NCBI GenBank assembly: GCA_947259575.1
Contig: CAMYMU010000049.1
Location: forward strand, 1-64,000
From: an uncultured Ectothiorhodospiraceae bacterium
GTDB taxonomy: Bacteria > Pseudomonadota > Gammaproteobacteria > UBA6429 > Thiohalophilaceae
Direction of reading: 5' to 3'
DNA: 64,000 bases
Positions 1-7,875 of this stretch are shown here, piece after piece; within the stretch, counting starts at the first letter, position 1; each line of letters begins with the position of its first letter. Below the pieces are notes generated by a model that did no database searches, was not told the DNA's origin, and saw only the letters and a program-made list of their open reading frames with translations. Both the position numbers and the translations under genes were made by a program.

Positions 1-975
1 ACTGTCCTCGCCCCACATCTTCTTGAACTCGGCAACAAACTTCTTGTTATTTGGATTATCCAATGACTGGAAATATTTCATGGCAGAATAGAATCCTTCG
101 ACGTTCTCACCACCGATACCAAGTACTTCATCTTCGGTTACTGATATGGTTAACAATGTTTGTTTCTTCGAGGTGATCCCAGCTGCTTTAAGTTGCTTAT
201 ACCAGGCTACATTACTACCACCGACAATGATGCTGTAGATAACGTCTGGTTTCTTAAGCTTGATTTTATTGATTAAAGAACGAAAGTTGGTATGACCAAG
301 TGGAAAATACTCTTCCGCAACGACCTTACCCTTAAGCACCTTTTCAATGTGTTTGCGTGCAATCTTATTCGAGGTTCTTGGCCAAATGTAATCAGAACCA
401 ATCAAATAGAACTTCTTGGCACCTTTTTCCTTGGCAACCCAGTCAAGGCCGGCAATGATCTGTTGTGTCGCCTCCTGACCTGTATAGAATACGTTCTTTG
501 ATTGCTCCAGACCTTCATAAAAAGTTGGGTAATAGAGCAAACCATTTTCTTTTTCAAATACTGGTAAAACTGCCTTTCTAGATGCAGATGTCCAGCAACC
601 AAACACAGCGGCAACTTTATCTTTCACTAAAAGTTTTCTGGATTTTTCCGCAAACGTTGGCCAATCACTGGCACCATCTTCTTGAATGATTTCAATCTTA
701 CGACCTAATATACCTCCACTTTCGTTAATTTGTTTAATGGCCAATTTTTCGGCTTCTACAGAACCGGTTTCTGAAATAGCCATCGTGCCCGTAACCGAAT
801 GTAGAATACCTACCTTGACTGTCTTATCTGTTATTGCCAATCCCGTTTTATTGACCGTTGGATAACTGGCAGCTACAGATGCCTGTGACATTACCAAACC
901 GATTACCGCACTCAATGTGCCAAGCATAAGTTTGTTTCGATATTTATTATTCGTAAATATATTTCTGAATAACAT
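1..975 (-). CDS. Urea/short-amide ABC transporter substrate-binding protein (C-terminus off window)
   Basis: Periplasmic binding protein of the UrtA/FmdD type, which delivers urea or short-chain amides to an ABC importer. The frame is open from the ATG at 975 to the window edge (325 codons), so the C-terminus is missing. The start has GGGAGGT about 8 nt upstream. A hydrophobic signal region ends near VMSQASVA, followed by the family-typical VKVGILHSVTGTMA, then GGILGRKIEIIQEDG, FGCWTSASRK, LYYPTFYEG and YPTFYEGLEQS-type segments. It diverges from the formamidase gene, which fits amide uptake linked to amide hydrolysis. A sigma-54 promoter lies at 1051-1066. UrtA versus FmdD cannot be decided without the rest of the operon. 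Confidence 0.88.
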   Translation of the reverse strand, partial: MLFRNIFTNNKYRNKLMLGTLSAVIGLVMSQASVAASYPTVNKTGLAITDKTVKVGILHSVTGTMAISETGSVEAEKLAIKQINESGGILGRKIEIIQEDGASDWPTFAEKSRKLLVKDKVAAVFGCWTSASRKAVLPVFEKENGLLYYPTFYEGLEQSKNVFYTGQEATQQIIAGLDWVAKEKGAKKFYLIGSDYIWPRTSNKIARKHIEKVLKGKVVAEEYFPLGHTNFRSLINKIKLKKPDVIYSIIVGGSNVAWYKQLKAAGITSKKQTLLTISVTEDEVLGIGGENVEGFYSAMKYFQSLDNPNNKKFVAEFKKMWGEDS

Positions 976-1050: not shown

Positions 1051-1066
1051 TGCAACTGCTATGCCA
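1051..1066 (-). promoter_or_regulatory. Sigma-54 promoter for the binding-protein gene
   Basis: On the minus strand the sequence reads TGGCATAGCAGTTGCA. It keeps the GG (-24) and GC (-12) separated by exactly 10 nt and a full TTGCA at -12, against consensus TGGCACG-N4-TTGCW. It lies about 75 nt upstream of the start codon at 975. Functional assignment is inference; the match itself is visible. Confidence 0.72.
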
Positions 1067-1210
1067 GAAGTTTTTTTATATTTTTCACACTATATAAACC
1101 TGATTCGAATTTTTTTAATTCGCTTTGTTATTCGCTTTAATCGACGCATTGAGTAAAACCAGTTCAATAAATTACAATTTTTATTTATTCCTCCTGTCCT
1201 CTTAAGTACT

Positions 1211-1246
1211 TTGTCATGTGACATTGTCGACAATGTCATGTGACAA
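1211..1246. promoter_or_regulatory. Triple-dyad operator / enhancer in divergent region
   Basis: Three dyads sit one helical turn apart: GTCATGTGAC (1213-1222), GTCGAC (1226-1231) and a second identical GTCATGTGAC (1235-1244), with centres at 11 bp spacing. The core GACATTGTC/GACAATGTC is a perfect 18 bp palindrome. The site lies between two divergent sigma-54 promoters, about 80 bp upstream of the plus-strand one and 145 bp from the minus-strand one, the usual range for an enhancer-binding protein. It does not resemble the NtrC consensus, so a dedicated activator is likely. Confidence 0.65.
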
Positions 1247-1324
1247 TCTGTTCAAATGTCCAATAATTTTCCTTTTCAGCCAGCAAAATTACTTTTAATC
1301 AACAAAATCCTTGATATTCAGAGC

Positions 1325-1340
1325 TGGCACACTTCCTGCT
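1325..1340 (+). promoter_or_regulatory. Sigma-54 promoter for the formamidase operon
   Basis: TGGCACACTTCCTGCT matches TGGCACG-N4-TTGCW at 10 of 12 fixed positions, with GG and GC separated by 10 nt. It lies about 100 nt before the fmdA ATG. It is paired with a divergent sigma-54 promoter at 1051-1066 and the shared operator at 1211-1246. Confidence 0.68.
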
Positions 1341-1438: not shown

Positions 1439-2612
1439 ATGGCTGACAAATTAATTAAAATTGATTTCTCAAAAAGCCCGGAGGAACAGGAATGCGTACA
1501 TAATCGCTGGCATCCGGATATACCAATGATTGCCTGGGTTAAACCTGGTGACGACTTTGTTGTGGAATGCATGGACTGGACCGGCGGGCAAATTGACAAT
1601 AACGACTCAGCCGATGATGTTCGTGATGTTGATTTAACAAAAGTTCATTACCTTAGTGGCCCTAGGTACACTAGATGAATACCAATGGGGCTTTAACGGT
1701 ATGTTCGCCAAGGAAAATGGTGGTGGCTTTTTAACTGAACATTTTCCAGAGGCACGCAAATCCATCTGGGATTTTTATGGTGTCTATACCCGTTCAAGAC
1801 ACGTTCCTGGTGTTAACTTCGCCGGAATTATGCACCCGGGACTGATCGGTTGCTTACCTTCACAGGAACTACTTGATGAGTGGAACAAACGTGAATTAGG
1901 TTTGATTGCAACCGATCCGGATCGTGTTCCTCCACTTGCCTGTCCTCCCGATGCCAGTACCGCACATCTAGGCACCTTAAAAGGTGAAGCCGCAACAAAG
2001 GCTGCTGCAGAAGCCGCCCGTACAGTACCTCCACGCGAACATGGTGGTAACTGCGATATCAAAGATCTAACCAAGGGCTCCAAGGTCTATTTCCCTGTTT
2101 ATGTTAAAGGTGGTGGTCTATCAATGGGCGATCTGCATTTTTCACAGGGTGATGGTGAAATTACATTCTGTGGTGCGATTGAGATGGCCGGTTGGATTCA
2201 TATCAAGGTAAGTTTGATTAAAGACGGCGTAAGTAAATACGCGGTTAAAAACCCTATATTTAAACCCAGCCCGATTCAGCCTGAATACAAACAGCATTTA
2301 ATCTTTGAAGGCATATCTGTTGATGAATCAGGTGAACAACACTACCTGGATGCACATGTCTCATACCGACAGGCTTGTTTGAATGCGATCGAATATATGA
2401 AAAAGTTTGGTTACTCCGGCGCGCAGGCCTATGCGATTTTAGGAACAGCACCGGTTCAGGGGCATATCAGTGGTATTGTTGATATCCCAAATGTATGTGC
2501 AACTTTGTTTCTGCCAACAGAAATATTCGAGTTTGATATTAATCCCTGTGCGGAAGGTCCAACACCGTATATTAATGGGGACGATATACCTATATCAGAG
2601 TGGGATAAATAA
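1439..2612 (+). pseudogene. fmdA: Formamidase, broken by an internal out-of-frame deletion
   Basis: FmdA/acetamidase family, which hydrolyses formamide to formate and ammonia. The first frame (1439-1678) starts after a GGAG ribosome site and carries NRWHPDIPMIAWVKPGD and DVDLTKVHYLSGP, then runs into RYTR and a stop. The second frame (about 1656-2612) resumes with LDEYQWGFNGMFAKENGGG and continues to the C-terminus, including ARTVPPREHGGNCD and LHFSQGDGEITFCGAIEMAG. About 16-20 residues that family members carry between SGP and the WGFNG segment (the PGDLLVVD strand) are absent and the frame changes. A simple one-base sequencing error therefore does not explain it. Either a real deletion or a local assembly loss; the protein is not expected to be functional as written. 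Confidence 0.85.
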
Positions 2613-2676: not shown

Positions 2677-2988
2677 ATGCCAGTTTATGAATATGTCTGC
2701 CAGGATTGTGAAATTTATTTTACTGAAATCAAAAAAGTAAACGAATTTAATAGCCCAAGTTTTTGTCCACAGTGTGATGAGCAGGCTCAAAAAGTGATCT
2801 CAGCCCCACACCTAAACACCATGCGTAGTGAGACAAGACAAGCCCATGAAACTAATGAGCGAAGCGCACATGCCCCAAAAGTTAAACATACGCATAAATG
2901 CGGCAGTCATTGCAACCACCAGAAAGATACAGCACAACCGGCCTATAAGCAGCAAGTTAATCGACGCCCATGGATGTTAGGTCATTAA
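2677..2988 (+). CDS. fmdB: FmdB-family zinc-ribbon protein
   Basis: Small FmdB-type regulatory or accessory protein, often next to formamidase. Starting at the ATG at 2677 it reads MPVYEYVCQDCEIYFTEIKK with paired Cys at CQDC and CPQC, the FmdB zinc ribbon. The C-terminal half is rich in His and Cys (HTHKCGSHCNH) and may bind more metal. The longer in-frame extension upstream overlaps fmdA and lacks family similarity, so the ATG at 2677 with GGAAGAA upstream was chosen. It is 64 bp after fmdA and probably in the same transcript. Confidence 0.85.
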   Translation: MPVYEYVCQDCEIYFTEIKKVNEFNSPSFCPQCDEQAQKVISAPHLNTMRSETRQAHETNERSAHAPKVKHTHKCGSHCNHQKDTAQPAYKQQVNRRPWMLGH

Positions 2989-3056: not shown

Positions 3057-3073
3057 TGCACCAGTTATGTGCA
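3057..3073. promoter_or_regulatory. NtrC-type enhancer site
   Basis: TGCACCAGTTATGTGCA matches the NtrC consensus TGCACC-N5-GGTGCA at all fixed positions but one, with perfect GCAC-N7-GTGC core symmetry. It is about 72 bp upstream of the sigma-54 -24 element at 3145, a normal enhancer distance. This predicts nitrogen-starvation activation of the ATP-grasp/iaaA unit. Confidence 0.7.
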
Positions 3074-3144
3074 CAAGATTAAGTTTCTAACCATATGAGA
3101 GCATCTAGATAACAAAACATCACAGCAAAACAATAAGTTACGTT

Positions 3145-3160
3145 TGGCCTGTTTTTTGCT
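3145..3160 (+). promoter_or_regulatory. Sigma-54 promoter for the ATP-grasp/iaaA operon
   Basis: TGGCCTGTTTTTTGCT has GG and GC separated by 10 nt and an intact TTGCT -12 element, 10 of 12 consensus positions. It is 55 nt upstream of the ATP-grasp start and downstream of the NtrC-like site at 3057-3073. Confidence 0.7.
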
Positions 3161-3214
3161 CTACTTCTTTATCAATTTGATTAACAAACCGTAGACTTGA
3201 TAGAGGAACACACC

Positions 3215-4333
3215 ATGTCAGTTGCAATGTTGCAAACCAGCCCTTTGCCAGTGAGCAAACACATCTTTAATCATGACATTATGAATTGTACTGCTGAAGG
3301 CGTAGTTGGTAATTATCTATATTCCGGCCGTGCACTTGGTATCACTGAACCCTGGGATAAAATCCAAATGCACGGTGATCTAGAGCCACTCTGGCAGGAC
3401 ATAACTGCGCATTACCAACGTATTGGATTAAGCCATACAGAAGATGTCATCTGGTACTTGAACTTGAAACAACTGGGTGCTCACATCGGCTATCAGCCCT
3501 CCGTATTTTACTATGGCCCTGAAGAATGTCAGTACTGGGGTGATTACGAGTGGTTAAATACGGTCGAGTACATCAACTCAAAAAATAACTTTATGCAACT
3601 CGCCGATGAGCTTGGCGTCGATGTACCGAAAACATTATGCTTCGATAGAAAGTCTGATATTGATATTGAAACGATGAGAAATATCAACTATCCCTGCTAC
3701 CTTAAAGCCGCGATATCCGTTTCTGGAGTCGGTATCTTCCGATGTGCAGACAAAACAGAGTTCTTTGAAAATTTAAGACACTTTGACACAAACACACCTA
3801 TTCAAATTCAAGAGGAGGTGAAAACAGATACATTTTTAAATTTACAATACAAAGTCGTCGGTAATGAAGCTGTACGTTTGACAGCTAGTGAACAGATCCT
3901 CGATGGTTTCGTCCATCAGGGGAACCGTGTACCGGCAAGTCATGAACCCTGGGAGATAGTCGACCCGATGGCTGACTGGCTGGTCGAGCATGGCATCAAG
4001 GGTATTTTTGCCTTTGATGTCGCGATAGCACAAACCACATCGGGCCTTCGTTTTCCTGCCATTGAATGTAACCCACGTTTTAATGGTGCTAGCTACCCAA
4101 CACTGATAGCAAACAAACTTAATATTACAGAATGGAGCGCTCTCACATTCTCAACTAAATATCGTAGCCTGGACAAAATTGATCTAAGTGATATCGAATA
4201 TAATCAAAGCGCTGGTGAAGGCGCCATTCTTGTGAACTGGGGAACAGTGCTCGAGGGTAAACTTGTGATTCTTTTGGCGGGTTCACGCGACTATCAAGAG
4301 GCTTTGGCAGTAGAACTTGCAGCACGTCTCTGA
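3215..4333 (+). CDS. ATP-grasp domain ligase of unknown substrate
   Basis: ATP-grasp enzymes join a carboxylate to an amine or thiol via an acylphosphate. In this 372-residue protein a pre-ATP-grasp region (about 1-120) is followed by the ATP-grasp fold: K164 and the loop SVSGVG (168-173) for nucleotide, and ECNPRFNG with E284, N286 and R288 as the metal and phosphate ligands. The ATG at 3215 was chosen because GAGGAAC lies just upstream; a TTG at 3197 is in frame but would include that ribosome site. It precedes an isoaspartyl peptidase gene in the same direction behind an NtrC/sigma-54 promoter. This suggests amide or beta-aspartyl peptide metabolism. It is much shorter than cyanophycin synthetase. 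Family firm, substrate unknown. Confidence 0.82.
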   Translation: MSVAMLQTSPLPVSKHIFNHDIMNCTAEGVVGNYLYSGRALGITEPWDKIQMHGDLEPLWQDITAHYQRIGLSHTEDVIWYLNLKQLGAHIGYQPSVFYYGPEECQYWGDYEWLNTVEYINSKNNFMQLADELGVDVPKTLCFDRKSDIDIETMRNINYPCYLKAAISVSGVGIFRCADKTEFFENLRHFDTNTPIQIQEEVKTDTFLNLQYKVVGNEAVRLTASEQILDGFVHQGNRVPASHEPWEIVDPMADWLVEHGIKGIFAFDVAIAQTTSGLRFPAIECNPRFNGASYPTLIANKLNITEWSALTFSTKYRSLDKIDLSDIEYNQSAGEGAILVNWGTVLEGKLVILLAGSRDYQEALAVELAARL

Positions 4334-7329: not shown

Positions 7330-7875
7330 TTAGAACGTATACAAAGCAGATATGCTCCATAAAGCTAATCTATTTGTGATATCACCCCCTGCCTCGATAT
7401 CTTCATACTCCAGCTGCATTGAGATTTTATCCCAGTAATTGAATTTCGCACCCACTGCCCAGGCCACATCAATTCCATCCTCCGATGTTGTTAAAGGTGG
7501 TCCAAAAATTGTTGTCGTTTGTTCCGTCTCCCAGTATGCCAATCCTGCTTTACCAAACACTTCAATATTCTCGCTCACAGGCAAAAGTCCTTTTGCCCAG
7601 GCACCCACTAACCAACCTTCAGCATTAGTCTCGAAAATGAAATTTTGCCTGGGATTGCCATAATCCGTATATGCAGCCTCGATAGAAAGATTCCGATGCA
7701 CACGCACTCCGCCAAAGATTTTGTAACCATTGCCATATTCGCCGAAGAAACTTTGGTTAATTTCGGATTGGCCAAGGCCGCCCCCCAAATAAGCATCGGC
7801 CGCATAAACTGGTGAATAGGCGAAGGCGCTGAATAATAGTCCTACGATATATTTTTTTATTTTGATATTTTTCAT
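7330..7875 (-). CDS. Outer-membrane beta-barrel protein
   Basis: A 181-residue OmpA/OmpW-like eight-stranded barrel. The ATG at 7875 follows AGAGGGAAAA; an open frame extends upstream to 7998 but runs through repeat-like sequence. Signal peptide MKNIKIKKYIVGLLFSAFA, cleaved near VYAADA. Mature part has alternating strands: YLGGGLGQSEI, YKIFGGVRVHRNLSIEAAY and a C-terminal LWSISALYTF ending in Phe, the usual barrel-insertion signal. Function unknown. Confidence 0.82.
   Translation of the reverse strand: MKNIKIKKYIVGLLFSAFAYSPVYAADAYLGGGLGQSEINQSFFGEYGNGYKIFGGVRVHRNLSIEAAYTDYGNPRQNFIFETNAEGWLVGAWAKGLLPVSENIEVFGKAGLAYWETEQTTTIFGPPLTTSEDGIDVAWAVGAKFNYWDKISMQLEYEDIEAGGDITNRLALWSISALYTF

Follow-up and report, generated by a model that had tools for sequence, protein, structure and literature searches.

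The region between fmdA and urtA raises the question of which regulator reads a compact block of repeats placed between two opposed sigma-54 promoters, and whether this regulator serves the operons on both sides. The window considered here is the whole stretch of 64,000 nucleotides, and its features that bear on this question are listed below with their coordinates in the window.

1..975, minus strand: 5' part of a urtA-type amide/urea-binding protein gene that runs off the contig start (reading frame; 87% identity with the protein of the congener G031).
1051..1066, minus strand: sigma-54 -24/-12 site of the urtA operon, TGGCATAGCAGTTGCA (GG-N10-GC; ortholog in 8/8 divergent loci).
1212..1245, no strand assigned: predicted upstream activating sequence, an array of TGTCA/TGACA half-sites (repeat counts, shuffles and conservation).
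1219..1229, plus strand: predicted activator site 1, TGACATTGTCG, with its core GACATTGTC at 1220-1228 (GACAWTGTC unit).
1228..1238, plus strand: predicted activator site 2, CGACAATGTCA, with its core GACAATGTC at 1229-1237, abutting site 1 (GACAWTGTC unit).
1325..1340, plus strand: sigma-54 -24/-12 site of the fmdA operon, TGGCACACTTCCTGCT (GG-N10-GC; ortholog in 8/8 divergent loci).
1440..2612, plus strand: fmdA (formamidase family), with a frame break at about 1662, where 56 nt present in the congener G032 are missing.
2677..2988, plus strand: fmdB (putative regulatory protein gene), downstream of fmdA (reading frame; homologue in locus L104).

Divergent promoters and the repeat block

Sites were accepted as sigma-54 promoters when they presented GG and GC with N10 between them, near TGGCACG-N4-TTGCW. 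Both window sites pass, as originally predicted (minus strand 1066-1051 and plus strand 1325-1340, each with GG-N10-GC), and TGGCATAGCAGTTGCA and TGGCACACTTCCTGCT each match the consensus at 10 of 12 scored positions. The rpoN gene is present in the same genome (Sigma54_DBD, 236 bits, contig C34). The repeat block was also found at its predicted place, but it measures 34 bp (TGTCATGTGACATTGTCGACAATGTCATGTGACA, 1212-1245) and not 36 bp. It contains two copies of TGTCATGTGACA (1212-1223 and 1234-1245) flanking TGTCGACA (1225-1232), with the three centres 11 bp apart. This exact spacing and the identity of the two outer copies had been foreseen, but the dyad GTCATGTGAC is only imperfectly palindromic (its reverse complement is GTCACATGAC).

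None of 5000 dinucleotide-preserving shuffles of the 427-bp region yielded two sigma-54 sites of equal score, and the same shuffles gave 0/5000 both for four half-sites within the span of the block and for two GACAWTGTC units. Across the 3.45-Mb genome, a pair of GACAWTGTC within 25 bp occurs a single time, in the fmdA/urtA region, which also holds two of the four genome copies of TGTCANNTGACA, 22 bp apart, and two of the seven sigma-54-like sites of such score in the 64-kb window. Half-sites as simple as TGTCA/TGACA could serve regulators of other families, and the repeats might in principle be fortuitous or belong to an unrelated element such as a repressor operator or a functionless repeat. 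We hold this to be extremely improbable: chance is excluded by the shuffles and genome counts, and a position held at 76-106 bp ahead of sigma-54 sites, together with the link to a single activator family described below, is as expected of an enhancer.

On the fmdA side, the bases that precede the gap at 1662-1663 are identical to those of G032, the bases that follow differ slightly, and an in-frame TAG comes after them. In G032, too, the contig starts within fmdA. The join may result from faulty assembly; alternatively, fmdA is perhaps broken in the window's genome. Further downstream, an NtrC-type site, TGCACCAGTTATGTGCA, lies about 70 bp upstream of a sigma-54-like TGGCCTGTTTTTTGCT (window 3057-3160). 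This pair precedes an ATP-grasp-like gene starting near 3214, and both sites are kept in G032 (locus L105). The operon that follows fmdA may be NtrC-controlled while fmdA is not.

Conservation across loci and the probable recognition unit

FmdA relatives, drawn from GTDB genomes and from the family to which the window's genome belongs, provided eight independent divergent loci: those of the window, the congener G031, the Gammaproteobacteria MAG N1D-Bin_12, Pseudomonas profundi, a Pseudomonas MAG, P. neustonica and two SJ MAGs. In each of these loci a sigma-54 site faces each gene, with scores of 10 or 11 of 12, and repeated TGTCA/TGACA half-sites lie between these sites; the promoter pair occurs in 0/64 loci with urtA and fmdA in one direction. 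At the level of sequence, these are divergent sigma-54 operons with a shared enhancer, that is, two opposed promoters with one conserved site cluster between them in 8/8 loci, in agreement with the original prediction. In the same family, loci L020-L022 have sigma-54 sites without TGTCA/TGACA half-sites, and L022 presents two NtrC-type sites in their place. One-mismatch matches to the IHF site are found in every divergent region, with no conserved place.

The array centre lies at about -122 from the fmdA promoter and about -189 from the urtA promoter in the window, and the array is nearer fmdA than urtA in 8/8 divergent loci. This asymmetry would suit an enhancer serving one promoter, the other sigma-54-like site being unused or separately driven, as would the genome G288, where a single unit faces urtA and the activator gene lies between fmdA and urtA. 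We regard such one-sided use as unlikely, given that the urtA-side sigma-54 site is kept in 8/8 loci at 10-11 of 12 positions and has no further array of units at its side.

Guyparkeria locus L025 carries identical sigma-54 sites, TGGCACACAAGCTGCT, at 3376-3391 and 7601-7616, with similar upstream stretches, one of them ahead of fmdA; with no GACAWTGTC or activator nearby, these sites probably depend on another activator.

When the inverted repeats of the eight regions were counted in an unbiased way, GACA-N1-TGTC came top with 14 copies spread over 8/8 loci; GTCA-N2-TGAC, the dyad of the original prediction, has 6 copies in 4/8 loci. With five-base arms, TGACA-N1-TGTCA was the commonest dyad (10 copies), and no dyad exceeded two copies in 200 shuffles. 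GACA-N1-TGTC is also present in the loci of related activators, and TGACAWTGTCA is its extended form in most loci of the amide/urea activator clade. Searching the predicted patterns at fmdA/urtA homologues recovered the sigma-54 pair in all eight divergent loci but the GTCATGTGAC dyad in only four. The central GTCGAC of the window, taken until now for a third dyad, arises because the cores GACATTGTC and GACAATGTC abut, and is the seam of two GACAWTGTC units; the outer TGTCA and TGACA of the block are additional half-sites. The seam GACATTGTCGACA recurs in four genomes with related activators. Half-site positions 0, 7, 22 and 29 are common to the window and L029, and positions 0, 7 and 22 to L027, with no GTCGAC centre there, and in the Pseudomonas loci the units fall at 0, 11 and 34. 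Unit number and spacing differ from locus to locus and, as the array layout varies, the binding register is uncertain.

According to the model first put forward, three separate dyads (GTCATGTGAC, GTCGAC, GTCATGTGAC) on one DNA face would each receive one dimer and together give a platform for a hexamer, as the three NorR sites do at norVW. It would account for the exact 11-bp centre spacing in the window and for the outer TGTCA-N2-TGACA pair, 22 bp apart, that also occurs in L029 (with one imperfect copy in L027), and three enhancer sites are indeed required by NorR (PMC2941729). As a general rule, this triple-dyad reading was rejected (GTCA-N2-TGAC in 4/8 loci versus GACA-N1-TGTC in 8/8) and, for the window itself, it appears rather improbable, since a dyad at the GTCGAC centre is not conserved and the isolated sites of other loci are GACAWTGTC. 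We therefore keep GACAWTGTC as the predicted recognition unit.

A candidate activator and its association with the motif

A dedicated enhancer-binding protein gene had been predicted beside complete loci. Such a gene, encoding a NifA-like GAF-AAA+-HTH_8 protein with a GSFTGA or GAFTGA loop, lies on the same contig in six divergent loci (L024 and L135, of 31,216 bases each, being counted as one contig). It stands between fmdA/fmdB and amiE in the Pseudomonas loci, is convergent with urtE in the SJ MAGs and lies beyond amiE in N1D-Bin_12. In the window's own genome, the best activator match is on contig C31 (756-2375, minus strand), convergent with urtE, and has 52-53% identity with the SJ proteins. 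The opening bases of C31 are the end of urtD, followed by urtE and then by the activator gene. To judge from these sequences, C31 very probably continues the window's contig (C49) across a gap of about 3 kb, because C49 begins inside urtA and because urtB/urtC of the window type are absent elsewhere in the assembly, where the urtC search gave only a 43% paralogue. The activator being on another contig, its linkage in this genome rests on gene order. It was not found in the congener assemblies G030-G032.

The GAF, Sigma54_activat (PF00158, 234 bits) and HTH_8 domains, together with the GSFTGA/GAFTGA loop, identify the protein as a bacterial enhancer-binding protein, and its predicted fold class is settled by domain and profile matches. 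The best NCBIfam match is NifA (TIGR01817, 402-445 bits, under the cut-off of 529), and the match to the NorR equivalog PRK05022 (311-336 bits) is far below the cut-off of 476. In a tree of 27 activators, the nine amide/urea-linked ones formed a 100/100 clade.

Three known regulators were rejected as owners of the site. NifA was set aside for its score under the cut-off and for the NifA-type TGT-N10-ACA, found in 2/8 divergent loci only. NorR was set aside likewise for its score and for the kept unit, which is GACA-N1-TGTC and not tandem GT-N7-AC (the window's other dyad is GT-N6-AC, versus GT-N7-AC for NorR). As for NtrC, which the dyads had been said not to resemble, the only TGCAC-N5-GTGCA match with at most two mismatches in the first 6 kb is at 3057, and none lies in 976-1439.

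The genome contains 12 clear Sigma54_activat genes, and the block could be used by NtrC or by one of roughly eleven other enhancer-binding proteins; the same-family L022, without the element, has NtrC-type sites, so that amide genes can be under NtrC. Use by any of these proteins nevertheless seems very improbable, as the NtrC-type site is absent from the region, the activator gene belongs to the locus, and element and activator family co-occur across genomes. In 20 other loci of the activator subfamily, 21 GACAWTGTC sites were counted; 18 of them are followed at 60-260 bp by a sigma-54-like site, against a random mean of 0.8, and in the background loci L031-L102 GACAWTGTC accompanies 0/117 sigma-54-like sites. 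When 369 gammaproteobacterial genomes were sampled, 13 presented a strict sigma-54 site preceded at 76-106 bp by GACAWTGTC, and the reversed control pattern gave no matches. Ten of these 13 genomes are among the 20 with a strong activator-family match (P ~4e-12, a somewhat flattering value because the distance window and the score cut-off were chosen with the amide loci and some related ones already in view). In the window's own genome, this composite site occurs at the fmdA/urtA region only, and the activator therefore looks single-target.

Some observations concern relatives of the activator. Loci L149 (5219-6050) and L143 (1290-1480) have one GACAWTGTC between opposed sigma-54-like sites and, in L149, the opposed genes are a cyanase-like gene on one side and, on the other, an ABC transporter operon containing the activator gene. 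A plasmid search for the activator returned three records, none shown as an amide locus. On the Marinobacter shengliensis plasmid pMAD49a (L170, 5690-13909), a related activator lies among ABC transporter, OsmC, acyl-CoA dehydrogenase-like, FAD oxidoreductase and cyanase genes, and three GACAWTGTC units stand about 100 bp upstream of a sigma-54 site. In the clade member G094 (L136, 1-3000), the activator is beside a ureF-like gene and a sigma-54-like site, and GACANTGTC and GACAWTGTC are absent in the stretch read; the amide/urea activator clade may also reach urease, with a different site.

Proposed mechanism and relation to known systems

From the sequences compared, we consider it highly likely that the 34-bp block serves as upstream activating sequence for a single dedicated NifA-like activator (GAF-AAA+-Fis-type HTH), whose gene lies at the distal end of urtABCDE and which drives both sigma-54 operons. 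Briefly, activator dimers would sit on the GACAWTGTC units, and the GAF domain would keep the AAA+ ring inactive until a signal arrives; the inducer may be urea or a short-chain amide, with nitrogen status possibly acting as a gate. The ring, which would assemble on the array as described for NorR (PMC2941729), would loop to sigma-54 polymerase on the fmdA side (about -122) and on the urtA side (about -189). Such two-way firing would switch on uptake (urtABCDE) and hydrolysis (fmdA-fmdB) together.

The divergent arrangement itself is not new, because hyc/hyp, orp1/orp2 and a predicted Desulfovibrio vulgaris case are known. At hyc/hyp, the enhancer is shared between both promoters. These divergent sigma-54 promoters are activated by FhlA, and the likeness lies in two opposed sigma-54 operons under one dedicated activator (PMC3844500), but the genes are hydrogenase genes and FhlA is another activator. 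The divergent sigma-54 operons orp1 and orp2 of D. vulgaris are fired together by DVU2106 at palindromic sites (PMC3897727). There, each promoter has its own site, IHF is needed and the activator gene lies between the operons, whereas a conserved IHF site was not found at fmdA/urtA. A further case of divergent sigma-54 promoters under one activator is predicted in the same species (PMC4641369). NorR at norVW is also a GAF-AAA+-HTH one-component activator with several short inverted repeats as ring platform (PMC2941729, PMC1274295), but its site is GT-N7-AC, versus GACA-W-TGTC here, and norVW has one sigma-54 promoter only. NifA, the best NCBIfam match, has the same domain order and differs by the score and site given above.

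The clusters fmdCABDEF of Methylophilus methylotrophus and amiE-fmdAB-urtABCDE of Pseudomonas veronii have the same enzymes and transporter type, and the accessible parts of their descriptions name no sigma-54 activator or enhancer for either; the P. veronii cluster is described there without amiC and amiR (PMC13209695). The present activator and its DNA recognition code appear to be undescribed: searches confined to the open literature gave no description of a sigma-54 activator of fmdA or amide genes, or of a GACAWTGTC site, which is weak evidence of absence.

A wider reading, to which we give about even chances, is that a subfamily of NifA-like one-component activators across Gammaproteobacteria reads GACAWTGTC, with clade-specific outer bases, each member running one small-nitrogen-compound locus (amides/urea; an ABC transporter with cyanase) and sometimes firing two sigma-54 operons per ring. 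If this is true, such loci would be predictable from DNA alone. The GACAWTGTC code predicts targets across genomes, and a likely regulator is supplied for formamidase/urea-type transporter clusters, some of which were reported without amiC and amiR. Finally, the block would offer a compact natural case of how one activator ring serves two promoters.
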